From: a virus
Length of the DNA stretch: 25,138 nt
Reading direction: 5' to 3' (one strand)
IMG/VR virus record: IMGVR_UViG_3300042905_003512
Span: 1-25,138 of that record
A program made the translations under genes and the position numbers. Below, one piece after another: positions 11,349-24,131 of this stretch (within the stretch, counting starts at the first letter, position 1; every line of letters starts with the position of its first letter). The notes under the pieces are model-generated. The model had not been told where the DNA came from. It ran no database searches and saw only the letters and a program-made list of their open reading frames with translations.

Positions 11349-12695
11349 TCAGTTCACCGGGGTGTAGCGCGACGTATCCGTGTAGCCAGAGATCATGCCG
11401 TGCGAGTTGCGCTGGACGAGGCCGAGGTTCCAGTAGGTCCCCCAGTTCATCATCTTCGCGTCACGGCCATCCACCGGGCGCTCGCCGTTGTTGTTGCCGA
11501 CTTCGGCCACGCCCCAGTCCTTGCCGTCGATCCAGACCAGCGACGGGGTGTGGACCATCTTGAACTCGCCAGCCGGTGCCCAGCCGGACGAGATGTACGG
11601 CATCCCGAGGATGTTCACGGCAGAGTACCCGCCGTTGATCTTCATCTGGCCTTCCGGCATGAAGCGGCGTGCGCCGAGGAACGACTCGGCCAGCTTCCGT
11701 TCGATGCCGTAGGTGCCCATCATCATGAAGTCGCCGGGCCGCTCACGCGGGGACATGCCGGAGCGCATCCCGATCTTCGTGGCCAGCTCCCAGACATCCA
11801 TCTCGTTCGGGTTGTTCGGGTCGATCACGCCCGACGCCGTCAGGCGCAGCGCGTCCCAGCGGGCGTGCGTTGCGGCGCTGATCCCGTGCAGCGAGTTGTA
11901 GCTGGTGCCGTCGCGGTTGAGCAGGTTGCCCAGTCCGTTCGGGGACTGGTTGAAGCCCGTCATGCTGCCGATGGTGCCACCCGACGGGGCGTTTGTGGCC
12001 GCGACGATGATGTCACCGATGGTGGCAGCAGACGCAAGGGCGGTGTCCAGCACCAGCACGGCGGTGTCGGTCGAGGCATTCTGCGTGATGCTGGCGATGG
12101 TCGAGCGACCACGCAGCGTCAGGCCGTCCGCCGAGAGGATGGCGATGTCCTGCCCGCGATCCAGCAGCAGGGCACCCGGACCCGCGTTGGTGTAGCCATA
12201 CGGGGAGTCCACGTTGAACGTGTTCGTCACCGCATTGCGGATGATGCCCTTCACACCGCGACCGTCGCCGTGGATCACCTCGCTGAGAGCCAGCTTGGTC
12301 GCATCCATCGCTTCCTGCACCAGCTTCTTGGCGATGCCGATGTACGCCCCTTCCTTCGTGGTCGTGCCGATGTCGGCCAGACCGTCGAGGACGCGGGTCA
12401 CATACATCCGCTTGATGTCCATGTTGCCCTGCACTTCCGTCGTCTGCGCCGACTTCGGGAACCAGCCCTCTTGGTTGGAGACGACGCCGACCGGGCGGTT
12501 CATCACCGTGTCGAAGGCGACACCGCGACCGGACCAGCGGAGACCCTTCATGCCACGGGTGCCCTTCTTGATCTGGGCAAGCACCGGGTCGGCAATCGGG
12601 AAGAACTTCATGCGGAAACTGGAGTGGACCTGCTTCAGCAGGCCATCGAACTCCGTTGCCGTGATCTGTGACACGGGGACGACTGTTGCGCCCAT
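11349..12695 (-). CDS. Major capsid protein
   Basis: The 448-residue length, position after portal and scaffold, and sequence style fit a phage major head protein, probably HK97-fold. The N-terminal third carries GMKGLRWSGRGVAFDTVMNRPVGV and an E-loop-like EGWFPKSAQTTEVQG segment. A long helical stretch follows (AYIGIAKKLVQEAMDATKLALSEVIHG), then a Gly-rich insertion domain around residues 145-260. The C-terminal part (ELATKIGMRSGMSPRERPGDFMMMGTYGIERKLAESFLG...DWGVAEVGNNNGERPVDGRDAKMMNWGTYWNLGLVQRNSHG) resembles phage coat proteins. It has a 33-base gap from the scaffold gene and no strong Shine-Dalgarno. Capsid function is well supported; the exact family is not assigned. Confidence 0.9.
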   Translation of the reverse strand: MGATVVPVSQITATEFDGLLKQVHSSFRMKFFPIADPVLAQIKKGTRGMKGLRWSGRGVAFDTVMNRPVGVVSNQEGWFPKSAQTTEVQGNMDIKRMYVTRVLDGLADIGTTTKEGAYIGIAKKLVQEAMDATKLALSEVIHGDGRGVKGIIRNAVTNTFNVDSPYGYTNAGPGALLLDRGQDIAILSADGLTLRGRSTIASITQNASTDTAVLVLDTALASAATIGDIIVAATNAPSGGTIGSMTGFNQSPNGLGNLLNRDGTSYNSLHGISAATHARWDALRLTASGVIDPNNPNEMDVWELATKIGMRSGMSPRERPGDFMMMGTYGIERKLAESFLGARRFMPEGQMKINGGYSAVNILGMPYISSGWAPAGEFKMVHTPSLVWIDGKDWGVAEVGNNNGERPVDGRDAKMMNWGTYWNLGLVQRNSHGMISGYTDTSRYTPVN

Positions 12696-13951: not shown

Positions 13952-16387
13952 TCATGCGGACATCAGGGGAATGTTGCCTTGGATTTCGGCGTCAGAGTCG
14001 GGCATCATCATTTCCGTGCCCGCCGCCGCCATGCCGGGGAGCGCCCCAAGCAGCGGCTGCTGCCCGGCAGGGAGATTCTCGCCCTCGACGGTGCCCATTT
14101 CCTCTTCGCCGGGCGCGGCAGGCTGCCCGCCCTGCTTGAGCATGGCCTGATCGGCCAGTTTCTTCCATCGGGCGTCCGCGATCTGGATGATTTGCTCCTC
14201 CAAGTCGTCCCGCAGCAGGATTTGCCGCTCCAGCACGGTCTGATGGATGGCTTCATCGTCCTGCCAGCGGATGCCGAAGCCCGGATCGGCGGAAAACTCG
14301 GGATCACCACGGGCAATTCGCTCTGCGAGGCGCAACGCACGCGCTTCTTGGGCGTCATCGGCGGTCTCAAAGCTGCCGGTGAAGGCAAAGGGCTGCCTGC
14401 GACGGAACTCTTCGGGGGAAATCACGCCTTTTTCCAGATTCTGCTCCAGCAGGAACAGCCGGAGGGCGCGGGGCATGGGCACCAGCGTCTCCGGGTCCAG
14501 CTGCACATCCGCAATCCCGTTGAAATCGTCACGGGTCAGCTGCCGGGCGAGGTCGACACGGGACTCGCCGGTCAGGGCGATGGTCCGGGGGAGGTCGTAC
14601 CCCCACCGCATGAACTCCAGCGTGATCTCGGCCCACTCGACCATGGCTTCCGACATGGCAATGACGCCCGGCAGGAAGACCCGCTCGACCTGCTCGCGCT
14701 GGGCCAAGATGGCACGACCCGATGATCCCGCAGAGAAGTTCCCACGGGTCGAGTCGTTCCACCCCATCTTGGCCTCAAAGGCGTCCCGCTCCAGCTGGAA
14801 CAATTCCTTGGCGTCCGGGGCGAGGCTCATCCCCGGCAGCACCTTCAGCGCGTTGGCGTCACCCTCGACATCCAGAATGGTCATGGTGCCGACGGCCATG
14901 GATTCTTTCTTCAGGCTGCCCGCCCGCCCCATCAGCTTGGGGCCAGCGTTGAGGCGGACGTTGTCCACCCACTTTGACAGCACGGCATTGACGCGCATCT
15001 GGTGTTCCAGTGCGTCGTCAAGTCGGCCTTCGGGGAAGTAGCGGGGGTCGGGCGTCCCGTCCGGCACCCGCACCACCGGGATGCGGGGGATCGGCAGGCC
15101 CGACACGCTCACGACGACATCCCCCACCGTGACCATCATCAGCCCGTTGGGCAGGGCGTCACTCGGCTCGCAGTAGAGCGTCCGGCGCATCACCGTCTGG
15201 ACTGGCTCCCCGCCGCCCCATGCGGACTGCATCGGGTTCTGGGCGGCTCCTGATCCCCAGACCGAACCAGTCCCAAGCGTACCCAGTCCAGCTGACAGTG
15301 TGCCACTGGACTGAGGGCCTGACATACCCAGTTCAGCAGCCACCTCCCGACCGTACCGGGCGGCGGATTCAGCCAGACTGATCTCATCCAAGAGGAGAAC
15401 GTAGAAGGGCTTCTGGCTGGCGGTGGCGTTGGGGGAGACACGGACATGCTCCAGTGTGTAGGTCTTGGTCCGGGGGTCGCCCAGTCGCGCCATCTGGCCG
15501 GTGCTTTCCATTCGCTCCAGCGGCCCGGCATCGACATCCCAGTAGATGTGCCAGAAGGCAACGGCGTCGGTGCCTGCGGCGTGCCGGGCCTCGACCGTCT
15601 GCTGCTTCATTTTCTGCTGGGTCCACTGGTACTCCAGCCCGTCCTGCTGCACCTCGGCCTGCTTCAGGCGCTCGGGGTCGCGGGAGCGGGGCTGGGTCCT
15701 GAAGCCGGGGCGCTGCTCGGAGATGACCTGCGTGTGCAGGTCGAGGGCGGGCTTCACCATGTTGAAGACCACCCGTGAGACATCAGAGGGCTGCGGCGGT
15801 TCGATCCACCGCACAGCGGCATCGCGTCCCTGTGGGCCAGCCCGGCGGGTGATCCACTGCTTGCCCGAATAGAACAGGCGGTTGCGGGTAACGGCGGGCA
15901 TCCGCTGGGCGACCATCGGCTCGGTCAGCGTCTCCAGCCCCTGCACCCATGCCACCCACGCCATGTCGTCGATGGCGTCGGTATCGACCATGCCCGTGGC
16001 CAGATCGACCGGCGCACCCTGCTGGGCGAAGGGGCAGTCGGCTCCGTACATGGCGCGGAGCCATGTCTCTTGCCCATCCACGGCGTCGGGGTCGTTCGGG
16101 TCCACCCGACCCACCATCAGGTCGGGGATGATGCCGGACTCGCTTTCCTCTGCGGCGGGCGGCTCCTCGCTTGACATGACGTTCCCGAAGTCGTCTTCGG
16201 CAACCTCGTCTTCCATGGGCATCTCTTCGCCCATGGCTTCGGCCATGATGCGGTCGGCCAGCGCCGTATCCAGTGCCTCGTCGGGTTCGGCGGCTTCCAG
16301 CTCCGAAAGCGCGATCCCGCCGGGGAGGATGGGGTCTTCCTCATCCTCCAGCATCTCGTCGTCCTGCGGCGGGAACGGGCTGGTCAT
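13952..16387 (-). CDS. Portal protein
   Basis: This 811-residue protein is long for a portal but in the range of P22-type large portals. After an acidic N-terminal 130 residues it contains RNRLFYSGKQWITRRA, VFNMVKPALDLHTQVISEQRPGF and FWHIYWDVDAGPLERM, phrases typical of large podovirus portals. The clip/stem region includes RLDDALEHQMRVNAVLSKWVDN and the helical DAKELFQLERDAFEAKMGWNDSTRGNFSAGSSGRAILAQREQVERVFLPG. The C-terminal helices (VLERQILLRDDLEEQIIQIADARWKKLADQAML) are followed by a Gly/Met-rich acidic tail. The ring would sit at the capsid vertex and guide DNA packaging with TerL. The Shine-Dalgarno is good (GGAGAG 7 bases upstream). Confidence 0.88.
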   Translation of the reverse strand: MTSPFPPQDDEMLEDEEDPILPGGIALSELEAAEPDEALDTALADRIMAEAMGEEMPMEDEVAEDDFGNVMSSEEPPAAEESESGIIPDLMVGRVDPNDPDAVDGQETWLRAMYGADCPFAQQGAPVDLATGMVDTDAIDDMAWVAWVQGLETLTEPMVAQRMPAVTRNRLFYSGKQWITRRAGPQGRDAAVRWIEPPQPSDVSRVVFNMVKPALDLHTQVISEQRPGFRTQPRSRDPERLKQAEVQQDGLEYQWTQQKMKQQTVEARHAAGTDAVAFWHIYWDVDAGPLERMESTGQMARLGDPRTKTYTLEHVRVSPNATASQKPFYVLLLDEISLAESAARYGREVAAELGMSGPQSSGTLSAGLGTLGTGSVWGSGAAQNPMQSAWGGGEPVQTVMRRTLYCEPSDALPNGLMMVTVGDVVVSVSGLPIPRIPVVRVPDGTPDPRYFPEGRLDDALEHQMRVNAVLSKWVDNVRLNAGPKLMGRAGSLKKESMAVGTMTILDVEGDANALKVLPGMSLAPDAKELFQLERDAFEAKMGWNDSTRGNFSAGSSGRAILAQREQVERVFLPGVIAMSEAMVEWAEITLEFMRWGYDLPRTIALTGESRVDLARQLTRDDFNGIADVQLDPETLVPMPRALRLFLLEQNLEKGVISPEEFRRRQPFAFTGSFETADDAQEARALRLAERIARGDPEFSADPGFGIRWQDDEAIHQTVLERQILLRDDLEEQIIQIADARWKKLADQAMLKQGGQPAAPGEEEMGTVEGENLPAGQQPLLGALPGMAAAGTEMMMPDSDAEIQGNIPLMSA

Positions 16388-19433: not shown

Positions 19434-19462
19434 CTATCCCCGGATCATACAGGCCGTGTCAA
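19434..19462 (-). promoter_or_regulatory. TTGACA promoter-like site before TerL
   Basis: On the minus strand TTGACA (19462-19457) is followed by TATGAT (19449-19444) and then GGGG (19441-19438). The TTGACA-to-GGG distance (about 22-24 bases) matches the repeated plus-strand leaders, but the CCCTCT box is shifted and no hairpin follows. It lies 16-41 bases upstream of the first TerL start. It could be a diverged late version of the same promoter; this is inference. Confidence 0.35.
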
Positions 19463-19589
19463 GAGAGGGAAAGCGGGATATTTGGTGAGGCAGGACGGCC
19501 AACGCTGGGGGACCCTCGACCCGTGATACCCCCTCCCACCCCTCCGTCGTGCCCCCTGCGCTCCGCGATTCCTTCCTCATATCTGTCGT

Positions 19590-19997
19590 TCAGAAGGTGA
19601 TGGACACGTTCCCGATCTGCACCACCCGGACATTCACGCCGCCCTCGCCATCCTCCTCTCCTGCTGGCAAGTGATTGGCCTGTACGGGTTTACCGTAGGC
19701 TCGGTCGTGGACGGTCTCCAGAATCTTGGTCGCAGCCTCCAACGCTCGGACCTTTCCTGCCTTCACGCCATCGTGCAGCTCGCCAGACGCAATCCCGACG
19801 CTAATCTGGTTCAGCAGCTTGCCTGTCAGTTCCCGCATCAGCGCATTCTTCGTGTTCTTGTTGTATCCCTTGCGCGGTCCGGGCTTCCCGCCAGTCAGCA
19901 ATCGTCCGCCGTTCTTGGCTGGGATCATCGGCAGCGTGTCTGCGGCGGGCTGCTGGATGGGCGCTGTGAGGGTCTCTGCGACGGGTTCGTCAGTCAT
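19590..19997 (-). CDS. Putative small terminase-like packaging protein
   Basis: This 135-residue protein has a basic Gly/Lys motif near residues 28-48 (KNGGRLLTGGKPGPRKGYNK). It resembles the 'GxFxPGxSGNPxGR' start of small proteins often annotated beside terminases. A helical region follows (TKNALMRELTGKLLNQISVGIAS, VRALEAATKILETVHDRAYGKP) and ends in a beta tail (VNVRVVQIGNVSITF). It precedes TerL on the same strand, the normal slot for a small terminase subunit that recognises the packaging site. The ATG at 19997 faces the divergent control region. Small terminases vary greatly, so the call rests on position and the basic motif. Confidence 0.55.
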   Translation of the reverse strand: MTDEPVAETLTAPIQQPAADTLPMIPAKNGGRLLTGGKPGPRKGYNKNTKNALMRELTGKLLNQISVGIASGELHDGVKAGKVRALEAATKILETVHDRAYGKPVQANHLPAGEEDGEGGVNVRVVQIGNVSITF

Positions 19998-20015
19998 GGC
20001 TGGTATCTATCCTCT

Positions 20016-20082
20016 CCCTCTGTAAATTGCCTCTTGACGTGCTATGGATACTTCATGGGTCAGCAGGAATGGCCTGTCTGAC
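20016..20082 (+). promoter_or_regulatory. Leader element A (promoter-like boxes plus hairpin)
   Basis: CCCTCT (20016) - 12 bases - TTGAC (20034) - 18 bases - GGGTCA (20057), with TACTTC at 20049. The hairpin uses GTCAGCAGG (20059-20067) and CCTG-T-CTGAC (20073-20082) with one bulged T and a five-base loop. It precedes the 97-residue gene by 54 bases from the GGG. It also forms most of the 113-base divergent region with the minus-strand arm. Confidence 0.7.
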
Positions 20083-20110
20083 ATCCACGATGACTTCTGG
20101 AGACTGCACC

Positions 20111-20404
20111 ATGACGAACGCCGAACGCAAGATCAGCCACAAGGATGCCGACTGGGTGCTGGAGTGGTACGAGACGACGCCGATTGGTCCCCGCGCAGTG
20201 AAGACGGCTTCCACCGACCGGCTGATGGCTCGGGCCAAGTGGCTGTTTGAGGGGCTGGGCGAAGGGGAGGGCATCGAAGCTCAGCGCATCGACGACGAAC
20301 TCCTGCGGCGGCAGGAGGACGCCGTGGGCGAGCAGGTCGTCTTCACCGAACACGGCGTCGGCCTGATCTGGAAGGACGGGGTGCTGATCGGCGCCATGCT
20401 CTGA
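20111..20404 (+). CDS. Small unknown early-region protein, 97 aa
   Basis: The ATG at 20111 is preferred because GGAG lies 8 bases upstream and the start then follows the leader element. The longer reading frame would begin inside that element. The sequence is mixed alpha/beta: KDADWVLEWYETTP, STDRLMARAKWLFEGLGEGEGIEAQRIDDELLRRQEDAVGE, ending in a short beta hairpin (VVFTEHGVGLIWKDGVLIGAM). No family is recognised. As the first plus-strand gene it is probably made early, but that is inferred only from layout. Confidence 0.65.
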   Translation: MTNAERKISHKDADWVLEWYETTPIGPRAVKTASTDRLMARAKWLFEGLGEGEGIEAQRIDDELLRRQEDAVGEQVVFTEHGVGLIWKDGVLIGAML

Positions 20405-20415
20405 TCCGCCGCTCT

Positions 20416-20486
20416 CCCTCTAGGATTCGGCACTTGACATGCTCATGAAGTTTCATGGGTCAGTCAGCACATCCGCTGGCTGGCCC
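20416..20486 (+). promoter_or_regulatory. Leader element B (promoter-like boxes plus hairpin)
   Basis: CCCTCT (20416), TTGAC (20434) and GGGTCA (20457) have the same spacing as the other copies. The hairpin is GGGTCAGTCAGC (20457-20468), loop ACATCC, GCTGGCTGGCCC (20475-20486): 12 pairs including two G-T/U wobbles. The start codon of the next gene is 65 bases after the GGG. Confidence 0.75.
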
Positions 20487-20521
20487 GCCGCAGGACCATT
20501 TCATCTTGTGAGGATTTCCCG

Positions 20522-20887
20522 ATGACGCACGAACTGCTGGACACGACTGGTGCGCTGGACGAGTCGCTGATTCTGGCGATGGACATGACGCAGATTCGCC
20601 AGTGGTCTGACGCCGACCACGACGACCTGATCGACGCCCTTGGGTCCATCACGCACTGCGCCGACCGTGAGGCGGGCAGCGTGGACGGGCCGACTGGCTA
20701 CTGGTGCTGCTGCTACACCTTCCCGCACACCGATCCTGCCGAGGGCGAGGGAGCCGTGATCTACGCCGAGGATTCGCTGGGCTTCCGGTACGCATGGCTG
20801 TTCGGGTCCGCCGCAGACGCCCTGCACGAAATGGACTCGGTGGACGACGCCGACGCCGAAGCGAACGCCGACGCCGAGGAAAGCTGA
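20522..20887 (+). CDS. Acidic unknown early-region protein, 121 aa
   Basis: The product is strongly acidic (repeated DADHDD, DPAEGEG, DDADAEANADAEES). It has a central aromatic/Cys patch (TGYWCCCYTFPHTD) and a SLGFRYAWLFGSAADALHEM segment. The acidic tail may mimic DNA or be simply disordered. GAGGA lies 10 bases before the ATG. It heads the second plus-strand unit downstream of leader B. No family is recognised. A DNA-mimic or host-inhibitor role is speculation from charge only. Confidence 0.65.
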   Translation: MTHELLDTTGALDESLILAMDMTQIRQWSDADHDDLIDALGSITHCADREAGSVDGPTGYWCCCYTFPHTDPAEGEGAVIYAEDSLGFRYAWLFGSAADALHEMDSVDDADAEANADAEES

Positions 20888-20899
20888 CCCACCGTAGGG

Positions 20900-20929
20900 G
20901 CCGGGCTGTGGAATCCGCCGCAGCCCGGC
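20900..20929. other. GC-rich hairpin between early genes
   Basis: GCCGGGCTG (20900-20908) and CAGCCCGGC (20921-20929) form a perfect 9-base inverted repeat with a 12-base loop. It lies 12 bases after the stop of the acidic gene and 29 bases before the next start. No T-run follows, so it may be an mRNA-processing or attenuation structure rather than a full terminator. Confidence 0.55.
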
Positions 20930-20958
20930 GCAGTCTCATCACCATGAGGACCAATCCC

Positions 20959-21249
20959 ATGAACATCAACGGCATTTGGGTGGGGCGCGAGTTTGCCTCG
21001 CTGTACGAGCACGGCGGCGTGTTCTTGGCCGACGAGATGGACAACGAGGGTTTCGCCAGCTTTGGCCACGACAACCACACGCAGATCGCCCACATGCGGC
21101 GGGCAGGAACCATCGAACGCACCACCGACTGGCTGTCCTCACCGTATGTCGCGTCGATGCTGTCCGACACGCTCCGCGATCCAACCCGTGGCCGTGGGCT
21201 GCACACGCTGCCTTACCTCATCACGCTGCACAACGCATGGGAATCCTGA
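20959..21249 (+). CDS. Small protein carrying a copied AAA+ Walker B segment
   Basis: The start at 20959 is supported by GAGGA 8 bases upstream; an in-frame ATG at 20944 would add five residues. In the 96-residue product, residues 17-29 (EHGGVFLADEMDN) are identical to the Walker B segment of the AAA+ ATPase encoded 2.5 kb downstream, and the DNA is identical over 40 bases. The rest, including NHTQIAHMRRAG and LHTLPYLITLHNAWES, shows no resemblance to the ATPase and there is no Walker A. It is not expected to hydrolyse ATP. It could be a chimeric relic or a regulator that mimics an ATPase surface. Coupling with the next gene (2-base gap) argues that it is translated. Confidence 0.6.
   Translation: MNINGIWVGREFASLYEHGGVFLADEMDNEGFASFGHDNHTQIAHMRRAGTIERTTDWLSSPYVASMLSDTLRDPTRGRGLHTLPYLITLHNAWES
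21006..21045 (+). repeat. 40-bp direct repeat, copy 1
   Basis: This 40-base segment is identical to 23585-23624 in the AAA+ ATPase gene. It encodes the GGVFLADEMDN Walker B sequence in the same frame in both places. Identity ends abruptly on both sides. Confidence 0.9.
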
Positions 21250-21251
21250 CC

Positions 21252-21500
21252 ATGAAACACACCACATGGAACCCGACCCGCCACAGCATCCGCCTGTGGT
21301 GGAACCGAAACGCCGTCACGGTCCTCGTCAGCCTTGGGGCGCTGGCCGTGATCTTGTGGGTGGACGGCGTGGACTCCCGGCAGGACCGCTGGAACGCCCT
21401 GTACGACCGCTGTGAGATCGCCATGCGGCAGGACAGCACCGCCAGCGACCACGAGATCGCGGATGTCTGCGGCGAGGCCGCCACCCGACTGACCAAGTAG
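21252..21500 (+). CDS. Small single-pass membrane protein, 82 aa
   Basis: The ATG lies 2 bases after the stop of the upstream gene, suggesting co-translation. A basic N-terminal stretch (HSIRLWWNRN) is followed by a hydrophobic helix at about residues 21-37 (AVTVLVSLGALAVILWV). A soluble acidic helix with two cysteines (YDRCEIAMRQ, IADVCGEAATRL) follows, probably outside the cytoplasm if the positive-inside rule applies. It lacks the length or paired helices of common holins. It could be a host-membrane modifier or superinfection factor, but the function is unknown. Confidence 0.65.
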   Translation: MKHTTWNPTRHSIRLWWNRNAVTVLVSLGALAVILWVDGVDSRQDRWNALYDRCEIAMRQDSTASDHEIADVCGEAATRLTK

Positions 21501-21506
21501 CCCGCT

Positions 21507-21577
21507 CCCTCTGTGATTCAGCCCTTGACATGGGCTGGATACTTCAAGGGTCAGCCAGAACATCCTCTGGCTGGCCC
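21507..21577 (+). promoter_or_regulatory. Leader element C (promoter-like boxes plus hairpin)
   Basis: CCCTCT (21507), TTGACA (21525), TACTTC (21540) and GGGTCA (21548) repeat the fixed spacing. The hairpin is GGGTCAGCCAGA (21548-21559), loop ACATCC, TCTGGCTGGCCC (21566-21577): 12 continuous pairs with one G-T/U wobble. The next start is 56 bases after the GGG. Confidence 0.78.
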
Positions 21578-21603
21578 GTTTCACTCCGCACTGAGACCAT
21601 CCC

Positions 21604-22056
21604 ATGCGAAAGAACACCGCCCGCGCCCTGACCAACTTCCTGAAGGGCAAGGCTGACATCCCGTCGCTGCACGGGTCCAGCATCTGGTCCGATGGCCAGA
21701 CCCTCTGGTCGTACCACACCGCCCTCTGCACATGGTTCGTGTCGGGCGCGGAACCCACCAGCCGCATCCCCCGCAGTGACGACCGGCGGGCGCTGGCCCT
21801 CAACATGACCAAGTATTCCGTCACCACCACGCAGCACCAGTACGCCATCCGGTACGACCTGACACTGCGGGGGTGCCTCAAGGCGTATGACCCGGATCAC
21901 CGCCGCTGGTGCCTGACGAACAGCGCCCCGCTGGTGCAAGAAGTGTGTGACGCTGACCAAGGCATTGGACGCGAGACGCTGGCCGAATACGCCAGCCACC
22001 TACTGTCCGCGTGCTACGCCGCTGACAACGCCCTCGCTGCGGCGGGTCTCCGCTGA
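21604..22056 (+). CDS. Unknown phage protein, 150 aa
   Basis: This 150-residue protein resembles, by style, short phage proteins with an N-terminal RALTNFLKGK helix. A DGQTLWSYHTALCTWFVSG beta region and a YSVTTTQHQYAIRYDL segment follow, then a helical C-terminus (RETLAEYASHLLSACYAADNALAAAGL). I recall similar families in tailed phages but cannot name one with certainty. GAGAC lies about 9 bases before the ATG. It overlaps the next gene by one base (TGATG), forming a two-gene unit behind leader C. Function unknown. Confidence 0.7.
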   Translation: MRKNTARALTNFLKGKADIPSLHGSSIWSDGQTLWSYHTALCTWFVSGAEPTSRIPRSDDRRALALNMTKYSVTTTQHQYAIRYDLTLRGCLKAYDPDHRRWCLTNSAPLVQEVCDADQGIGRETLAEYASHLLSACYAADNALAAAGLR

Positions 22057-22277
22057 TGGCCCGCGAATATCGCCCCCTCCACTGGCAGGTCGAAGTCACG
22101 GCCACCCTGCGCGACGGCACCACCCGCCACATCCTGACGCGCCGCCACTGCTCATTCCGCGAAGGACTGCGGCGGGGCCACACCTTCTGCCGCAAGCACG
22201 GGATCGACTGGGTCCAGCTTCACGCCACTACCCCGAGTCTGGGCACCATGCCGACCGAGACGCTTCTCCCTCTGTAA
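22056..22277 (+). CDS. Small basic unknown protein, 73 aa
   Basis: The ATG shares a base with the preceding stop (TGATG). The product is rich in Arg and His (TRHILTRRHCSFREGLRRGHTFCRKHGIDWVQLH), with a probable small beta/alpha fold, which would suit nucleic-acid binding, though that is only a charge argument. The last codons (LLPL, stop) are read through the CCCTCT box of leader D. The gene therefore ends inside the control element of the following gene. No family is recognised. Confidence 0.62.
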   Translation: MAREYRPLHWQVEVTATLRDGTTRHILTRRHCSFREGLRRGHTFCRKHGIDWVQLHATTPSLGTMPTETLLPL

Positions 22278-22339
22278 TTGCCCCCTTGACACGGGTAGTT
22301 ACTTTCACGGGTCAACTGGACACCCTGTCTGGTTGGCCC
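22268..22339 (+). promoter_or_regulatory. Leader element D (promoter-like boxes plus hairpin)
   Basis: CCCTCT (22268), TTGACA (22286), TACTTT (22300) and GGGTCA (22309) keep the common spacing. The hairpin is GGGTCAACTGGAC (22309-22321), loop ACCCT, GTCTGGTTGGCCC (22327-22339): 13 pairs with three G-T/U wobbles. The stem sequence differs from copies B and C yet still pairs. The ATPase start is 56 bases after the GGG. Confidence 0.78.
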
Positions 22340-22364
22340 TTTCCACTCCACCGGGACCACTCCG

Positions 22365-24131
22365 ATGGCAACACCGAAGAAGACCGCGTTCGATGTGGGG
22401 CAGCGGGTCCGCCTCACCACCACCTGCGACGGGCTGCACCCCGATGGCGAGACTGCCGTCCGGGTCAACCCCGGCGAACTGGTGGAAATCACGGCCCACC
22501 TGTCGGGCAACAACTACCACGCCAAGTACGCCCAGCGGGTGGGCACCAACTGGGGGTGGGGTAGCGTCCGCCTCAACTTTGCCGACGCCCAGACCGTGCT
22601 CGGACGGCAACTGTTCCCCGGCCCACTGGACCGAGACCTTGGGGTCCGCCCGCAGGATCAAGGCAACGGCCCCACACTGAATGCCTCTGGGCAGGGGTCC
22701 ACCGCTGCGAAGGACGAACTCCACGCCCACGGCAAGGGTGACGCGCCCAGCCCCGAGACAAGCGACGAGGAAGGCGACGGCACGGGTGGGGGCAAGGCCG
22801 ACCCCGCCGCAGAGAAGGACCCGCAGGACATGACCACTCAGGAATTGTACGACGAGTTGCAGGACGCAGGTGCAGGTTCCCCGCAGGATTCCGCCGAGAC
22901 CACTTCCGACGACGAGACCGACGACATGACCGACGACCAGAAGCACGCAGCCGACGCCCTCGCCAAGGCCCTCCAGCAGATGGGCACCCCCCCCGCTGCC
23001 ACCCCGCCACAGCAGCAGGACGCCACGCTGGAGCAGCGTGTCGCCACGCTGGAACGACTCGACTCCACCATGACTACGCCCGTGCGGGATGCGTTCCCGT
23101 CGGTGGCGAAGCAGGTGTCGGCCATCGGTGCCATCCTGACGGGGCCGCTCGCCACCTTCATGGGCACCACGGGGGCCACGCTCGACGAAGTGAAGAAAGA
23201 CATGGCCGCGATACAGGCGGCGCTCGTCGAAGCGGTGAAGGACGCAGCCAAGGCAGCGGCTGCCGCAGCGCCCGCCGCAGGGGAACCCGTGATCCATGTC
23301 TTCCAGACCCCGACGCAGACCTTCCAGACCGAGAAGGGCGACCGCCCCGAGATCGTGGAGTCCCTGTTCCGCATCGGCTGCGGGATCAAGAACATCCAGT
23401 GGGTGGGTCCGGCGGGCTGCGGCAAGACGACGATGGCCGCGATCATCGCCACCCGACTGGGCTTGGAAGTGGGGGACGCGACCTGCTCCCCCGGCATGTC
23501 GGAGACCATCTGGACGGGCCGACTGGTCCCGAACATCGCCACCGGGGTGGACAACTACCGGGTCTCGCTCTTCGCCCACCTCTTCGAGCACGGCGGCGTG
23601 TTCTTGGCCGACGAGATGGACAACTCCGATCCCGCCTCGCTGCTCGCCATCAACACGGCGCTGGCAAACAGCTACTTCACCCTGCCCGATGGTCGCCGGA
23701 TCGTGCGCCACGCGGACTTTGTGATGATTTCCGCGATGAACACCTACGGCAACGGTGCTGATCGGGTGTATGTGGGACGCGCCCAGCTGGACGGTGCCTC
23801 CAAGGACCGCTACAAGGGGGGTGTCATCACGGTGGGCTACGACCCGACCATCGAACGGGCGATCTGCGGCGGGGTGGGCAACAAGAACGACGCGAAGCGG
23901 CTCTACGCTGCGGTGGTGGCCCTGCGGAAGGCGGCATCCAAGGCGGGCATCCGCGAGATCATCTCCACCCGCTGGATCGTCAGCTGCTCCAAGCTGATGG
24001 CGGGGGGCCGGACGCTGGCCGAAGCCATGCGAATCTGCGCCGAAGACTGGTCCGAGAACGACCGACTGGCCTGTGGCATTGCCGACACCGCGCCCGCCGC
24101 AGTCGAAGCCGAAGTCGAACCCACGTTCTGA
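22365..24131 (+). CDS. MoxR/CobS-type AAA+ ATPase
   Basis: In this 588-residue protein, residues 8-80 form a small beta domain (FDVGQRVRLTTTCDG...WGWGSVRLNF). Residues 95-215 are acidic and probably disordered. Residues 219-305 are helical and Ala-rich. The AAA+ core spans about residues 322-545: Walker A GPAGCGKTT (348-356), Walker B GVFLADEMDN (411-420, D416/E417), sensor 1 at N459 (ISAMNT), an arginine-finger candidate at DRY (R482) and sensor 2 STRW (R536). Such MoxR/CobS-like ATPases act as remodelling chaperones with VWA-type partners. The long acidic linker may recruit one. The gene follows leader D and is followed 31 bases later by a likely partner gene. A cobaltochelatase reaction is not implied. 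Confidence 0.88.
   Translation: MATPKKTAFDVGQRVRLTTTCDGLHPDGETAVRVNPGELVEITAHLSGNNYHAKYAQRVGTNWGWGSVRLNFADAQTVLGRQLFPGPLDRDLGVRPQDQGNGPTLNASGQGSTAAKDELHAHGKGDAPSPETSDEEGDGTGGGKADPAAEKDPQDMTTQELYDELQDAGAGSPQDSAETTSDDETDDMTDDQKHAADALAKALQQMGTPPAATPPQQQDATLEQRVATLERLDSTMTTPVRDAFPSVAKQVSAIGAILTGPLATFMGTTGATLDEVKKDMAAIQAALVEAVKDAAKAAAAAAPAAGEPVIHVFQTPTQTFQTEKGDRPEIVESLFRIGCGIKNIQWVGPAGCGKTTMAAIIATRLGLEVGDATCSPGMSETIWTGRLVPNIATGVDNYRVSLFAHLFEHGGVFLADEMDNSDPASLLAINTALANSYFTLPDGRRIVRHADFVMISAMNTYGNGADRVYVGRAQLDGASKDRYKGGVITVGYDPTIERAICGGVGNKNDAKRLYAAVVALRKAASKAGIREIISTRWIVSCSKLMAGGRTLAEAMRICAEDWSENDRLACGIADTAPAAVEAEVEPTF
23585..23624 (+). repeat. 40-bp direct repeat, copy 2
   Basis: This copy lies in the Walker B region of the AAA+ ATPase and is identical to 21006-21045. 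Because it encodes an essential catalytic segment here, it is likely the donor copy. Confidence 0.9.

Follow-up and report, generated by a model that had tools for sequence, protein, structure and literature searches.

Four rigidly spaced copies of an element in a phage genome, a hairpin beginning at their GGG, and a possible promoter class with a 5′ stem-loop

The complete IMG/VR record IMGVR_UViG_3300042905_003512 (25,138 bases; hereafter the window) holds genes of an uncultured phage in two opposed blocks: those left of position 19997 lie on the - strand and include the large terminase (TerL), portal and major head protein genes, and those right of 20111 lie on the + strand. The subject of this work is an element of the form CCCTCT-N12-TTGAC-N18-GGGTCA, of which the window contains exactly four copies, always on the + strand (starting at 20016, 20416, 21507 and 22268; copies A to D, Table 1), each time directly preceding + genes. 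Copy A falls within a divergent gap of 114 nt, between the first + gene and the - strand gene labelled TerS, a label given by position only, its open reading frame (ORF) having no PHROG family match. Copies B and C each begin 5-10 nt past the stop codon of the gene before them, and copy D reaches back into the final codons of the gene upstream. The leaders from GGG to ATG measure 54, 65, 56 and 56 nt in A, B, C and D, the same range as in the preliminary description of this DNA, which also took each copy to begin a separate gene unit. We keep that last statement for the gene order and restrict it to this, because a terminator scan detected none between the units and because of the overlap at copy D.

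The four-copy element itself is real: a tolerance of three mismatches returns the same four copies and no further match, against 0.07 expected from 100 shuffles, and the number, coordinates and identical spacing first described for it are exact. Conserved in register in all four copies are (T/G)CTCCCTCT, a loose ATT within N12, CTTGAC(A/G)(T/C)G, whose final G stands three bases past TTGAC, and TTCAN immediately 5′ of GGGTCA. A variable hexamer follows TTGACR at 7 bp and precedes GGG by 4 bp; at 17 bp from TTGACA, where the -10 of a sigma-70 promoter would be expected, stands GGGTCA.

At 99.95% identity, the window is contained in a longer contig, IMGVR_UViG_3300042553_000422 (45,886 bases; hereafter the relative), whose two ends share 343 overlapping bases (97% identity); it thus behaves like a circular map, complete at ~45.5 kb. 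The relative carries only these four copies, and in a position weight matrix scan of it the next best full-motif scores were ~70 bits lower. All 13 differences between the two sequences fall outside the elements, and the relative therefore adds no information on covariation. Twelve other leads were set aside as chance, being without second copies or without a matching hairpin.

Table 1. Element copies, hairpins, genes and related sites. Coordinates are those of the window unless the relative is named; stability ranks are among all 31-base windows on both strands of the relative (n = 91,710), and p values come from shuffling the arms around TTGAC, copy by copy.
Feature	Position	Strand	Description
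Copy A	20014-20062	+	CTCCCTCT; TTGAC 20034-20038; -10-like GATACT 20047-20052; TCAT; GGGTCA 20057-20062
Copy B	20414-20462	+	TTGAC 20434-20438; hexamer GAAGTT 20447-20452; GGGTCA 20457-20462
Copy C	21505-21553	+	TTGAC 21525-21529; hexamer GATACT 21538-21543; GGGTCA 21548-21553
Copy D	22266-22314	+	TTGAC 22286-22290; hexamer TTACTT 22299-22304; GGGTCA 22309-22314
Hairpin A	20057-20086	+	9 pairs, bulged U, plus 2 outer pairs; -13.7 kcal/mol; z -2.06; weak
Hairpin B	20457-20486	+	12 pairs; loop ACATCC; -24.2 kcal/mol; z -6.45; rank 17
Hairpin C	21548-21577	+	12 pairs; loop ACATCC; -24.9 kcal/mol; z -7.96; rank 12
Hairpin D	22309-22339	+	13-14 pairs (14 in minimum-energy fold); -21.7 kcal/mol; z -5.38; rank 106
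Second inverted repeat in C	21513-21542	+	11 pairs, one bulge; loop TTGACAT; p ~0.001
Second inverted repeat in D	22274-22302	+	10 pairs; TTGAC in loop; p ~0.001
Gene after copy A	20111-20404	+	97 aa, no family
First gene after copy B	20522-20887	+	121 aa, no family; then ORFs 20959-21249 and 21252-21500
First gene after copy C	21604-22056	+	150 aa; then ORF 22056-22277
Gene after copy D	22365-24131	+	MoxR/CbbQ-type AAA ATPase (PF07728, phrog_249)
Site F	19444-19469	-	CCCTCTCTTGACACGGCCTGTATGAT; CCCTCT-C-TTGACA-N7-TATGAT, ~20-30 nt before TerL start
TTGACC-18-TAGTAT	relative, reverse complement 25872 (= window 25634, just past window end)		perfect 19-bp palindrome ACCAGACACCGTGTCTGGT in spacer
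TTGACA-17-GATACT	relative 33500	-	before gene read as SSB-like from its sequence

In each copy a hairpin begins exactly at GGG. Refolding gives 12 pairs in B and C, 14 in D and 9 with a bulged U in A, in agreement with the stems initially proposed, and the hairpins of B, C and D rank among the most stable windows of the relative (Table 1); that of A ranks only 3454 of 91,710. Folded on the opposite strand, the same segments reach -14.6 (B), -20.0 (C), -11.2 (D) and -11.5 kcal/mol (A). The hairpins of B to D are weaker there because the six non-Watson-Crick pairs in them (four independent positions) are in every case G-U on the + strand, never A-C. Such a bias points to RNA, as a DNA palindrome would not give it; by our own estimate, strand-blind transitions would yield four G-U pairs out of four about one time in 16, and we take the bias as supportive rather than decisive.

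The stems of B to D also differ among themselves in a way that keeps them paired: two pairs have changed on both sides, three have changed on one side to G-U, none is broken, and sliding the 3′ arm along destroys the pairing. The compensatory change on which the preliminary description had relied is thus suggestive, but it is not significant by itself: with three sequences only, and with their covariation score equalled in 58 of 500 within-column shuffles, covariation cannot be claimed alone. A covariance model of the hairpin, run over the relative, gave no matches below E 0.01 other than the hairpins of B, C and D and, for B and C, their reverse strands; Rfam covariance models gave no match up to E 1. 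Altogether, an RNA hairpin in B to D is very likely. If transcription starts at GGG, its stem would begin right at the 5′ end of the transcript, and ~25-35 nt would remain before the start codon.

As to what might read the element, no sigma-70 promoter, defined as TTGACA and TATAAT separated by 16-18 bp, is found in 19900-22500, in keeping with the earlier remark that this is not a normal promoter of that kind. The further suggestion of a phage-encoded polymerase or sigma factor as the reader is not supported by the relative, which has no match to the single-subunit RNA polymerase family PF00940 (the T7 positive control scores 9.9e-110), none to Sigma70_r2, and matches to Sigma70_r4_2 below the cut-off only (E 0.0026 and 0.0086). 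A polymerase motif search of the relative gave one unconvincing six-frame match. The relative also contains an ORF of 2682 aa (reverse complement, 34857-42905), in which no RNA polymerase motifs were found and which probably encodes a very large protein of the virion. A D5-like regulator (phrog_323, E 1.7e-5) is a candidate, and only a candidate, for an activator.

Outside the element region the relative has two canonical sigma-70-like promoters (Table 1). The palindrome in the spacer of the first is likely a repressor operator. The second precedes a gene that matches, among the PHROGs, only phrog_862, a family of unknown function, and its -10, GATACT, is identical to the hexamer of copies A and C. 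A further likeness, found after the fact and offered as a lead only, is site F, between the small and large terminase genes, which shares with A to D a CTTGACAYGG box followed at the same 7 bp by a -10-like hexamer; its CCCTCT lies 11 bp nearer to TTGACA than theirs and no comparable hairpin is seen after it. Judging from these boxes, site F may be a promoter that belongs to this class but lacks the hairpin.

The reading that we favour, and regard as an even call, is that copies A to D are a single phage-specific promoter class driving the gene clusters that run rightward. Host RNA polymerase would act together with a postulated phage or host factor recognising the CTCCCTCT and CTTGACR boxes, would use the degenerate -10-like hexamer, and would start in the GGG that follows, so that each transcript would begin with the stem-loop (12-14 bp, weak in A). 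This stem-loop would most likely shield the message from 5′-end-dependent decay and leave the region of the start codon free; bacterial mRNAs can be stabilised by a hairpin located at their 5′ end or close to it, and such a hairpin hinders conversion by RppH (reviewed in PMC3997798). We prefer this reading because the element recurs rigidly before gene clusters, because the hairpin of B to D is strand-specific, and because of the placement of copy A, in whose divergent gap a + promoter is needed. The promoter with a GGG start and a stem-loop envisaged in the preliminary description hence stands as the best single reading, minus the reader that was proposed for it.

Several points weigh against it. 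Copies B and D have a poor -10-like hexamer, and we know of no sigma arrangement with TTGAC 7 bp from the -10. The hairpin of A is weak, the phage activator has only the D5-like regulator as a candidate, and the evidence comes from only four copies in one phage lineage. Moreover, the segments flanking TTGAC are mutually complementary in C and D (Table 1), a feature not expected of a pure promoter. The observation is solid, and the mechanism is what we infer from it.

This complementarity is the starting point for another explanation, which we consider rather unlikely, namely that the entire element is transcribed from upstream and forms an RNA of two hairpins, the first with TTGAC in its loop and the second with the GGG stem, acting for example in put-like antitermination, as a processing site or as a translation regulator. 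N12 and N18 pair around TTGAC in C and D, the Fisher combination over the four copies is 0.0004 on the + strand, and the non-Watson-Crick pairs of this first hairpin are all G-U; conserved loops and variable stems could account for the rigid spacing, and B to D follow directly on stop codons within one gene run in which no terminators were detected. However, the first hairpin is missing in A (p 1.0) and B (p 0.44), and only ~17 nt separate copy A from the divergent TerS, so that a separate + promoter would fit only inside TerS. No Rfam family matches such an RNA, and the reading was itself noticed after the fact.

It is also doubtful that the dyads are DNA operators for the dimer of a repressor or activator, such as a small helix-turn-helix (HTH) protein from the right arm of the relative, the hairpin then being DNA symmetry over the -10 and start of an alternative-sigma promoter, TTGACA-N17-GGGTCA. 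The spacing of these two boxes is exactly that of a -35/-10 pair, TGAC and GTCA form a loose dyad within the element (most marked in D), that right arm does encode an HTH_3 protein, and for the palindrome ACCAGACACCGTGTCTGGT in the spacer of the canonical promoter the sole other match in the genome at up to 3 mismatches is the copy D hairpin (16/19). Yet an operator predicts no strand bias, such as the G-U pairs of B to D display, and the half-sites differ among the copies, where a single protein should keep them alike.

Distinctly improbable, in our view, is a combination in which a compact DNA/RNA module of ~80 nt would use CTCCCTCT, TTGAC and TTCA both as promoter boxes and as the loop or linker of a two-hairpin RNA, linking the choice of start to transcript protection or terminator resistance with no phage polymerase or sigma factor involved. 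Hardly credible is the idea that the hairpin serves, downstream of a promoter, as an ordinary attenuator or intrinsic terminator: it is a stable GC-rich stem within a leader, but none of the four stems is followed by a T-run and the terminator scan finds none there.

The downstream genes offer two further observations. The segments 21006-21045 and 23585-23624 are an exact repeat of 40 bp, by which a stretch of the MoxR-type ATPase, HGGVFLADEMDN, also appears within the small ORF 20959-21249; the repeat suggests a recent event, either gene conversion or a partial duplication. In the gap before the same small ORF lies GCCGGGCTGTGGAATCCGCCGCAGCCCGGC (20900-20930, +), which at -28.1 kcal/mol is more stable than any other 31-base window of the genome and has no T-run.

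The phage lineage is sparsely sampled. Scans of IMG/VR with three forms of the element pattern recovered only the 99.95% identical contig and chance matches, and scans with its MoxR, TerL, major capsid and portal proteins the near-identical contig and otherwise two distant matches at 26-27% identity. GTDB genomes scanned by TerL and by the element pattern yielded nothing related, and neither the major head protein (11349-12695, -) nor the portal (13952-16387, -) had a tblastn match at E 1e-5 among 50,697 GenBank phage records. At the sensitivities used, searches of IMG/VR, GTDB genomes and GenBank phages thus brought up no further relative with the element.

Should the promoter reading be true, the phage would redirect host RNA polymerase to a class of promoters without a recognisable -35/-10 pair, which implies a new transcription factor, and would build an mRNA-protecting hairpin into the transcripts, a compact design that could also serve as a genetic part. 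Should the two-hairpin reading be true, it would add a possible antitermination or processing RNA.

Among known systems, promoters of the T7 type resemble copies A to D in that a rigid element is repeated ahead of a GGG start, with a transcript opening in a GGG stem-loop; the leader of T7 gene 10 has its hairpin at the start of the transcript. In contrast to them, the conserved boxes of our element reach to -41, beyond the length of a T7 promoter, and no PF00940 polymerase was detected in the relative; the 23-bp T7 consensus (ending GGGAGA) has no match in the window at up to 3 mismatches. The put antitermination RNAs of phage HK022 consist of hairpins in tandem close to where phage transcripts begin, and a likeness to them exists in C and D only, since the first hairpin is missing in A and B, and without an Rfam match.

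The SAS/ESAS repeats of Cluster K mycobacteriophages stand with variable inverted repeats before some non-structural genes (PMC3203893) and are alike in joining a repeated element to variable inverted repeats before a subset of such genes. They differ in position, SAS lying at the translation start and the A to D element 54-65 nt from the start codon, and the SAS sequence GGGATAGGAGCCC has no match in the window at up to 2 mismatches. In the middle promoters of T4, the MotA box and a strong -10 are 12 ± 1 bp apart (PMC2988021), whereas in A to D 7 bp separate TTGACR from a poor hexamer and an extra box stands 12 bp upstream of TTGAC; general scans of the phage proteins returned no MotA or AsiA family, with no search aimed at them. 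The logic of the two arrangements would nevertheless be comparable under the promoter reading proposed here, a phage box replacing the -35 and host RNA polymerase using the -10.

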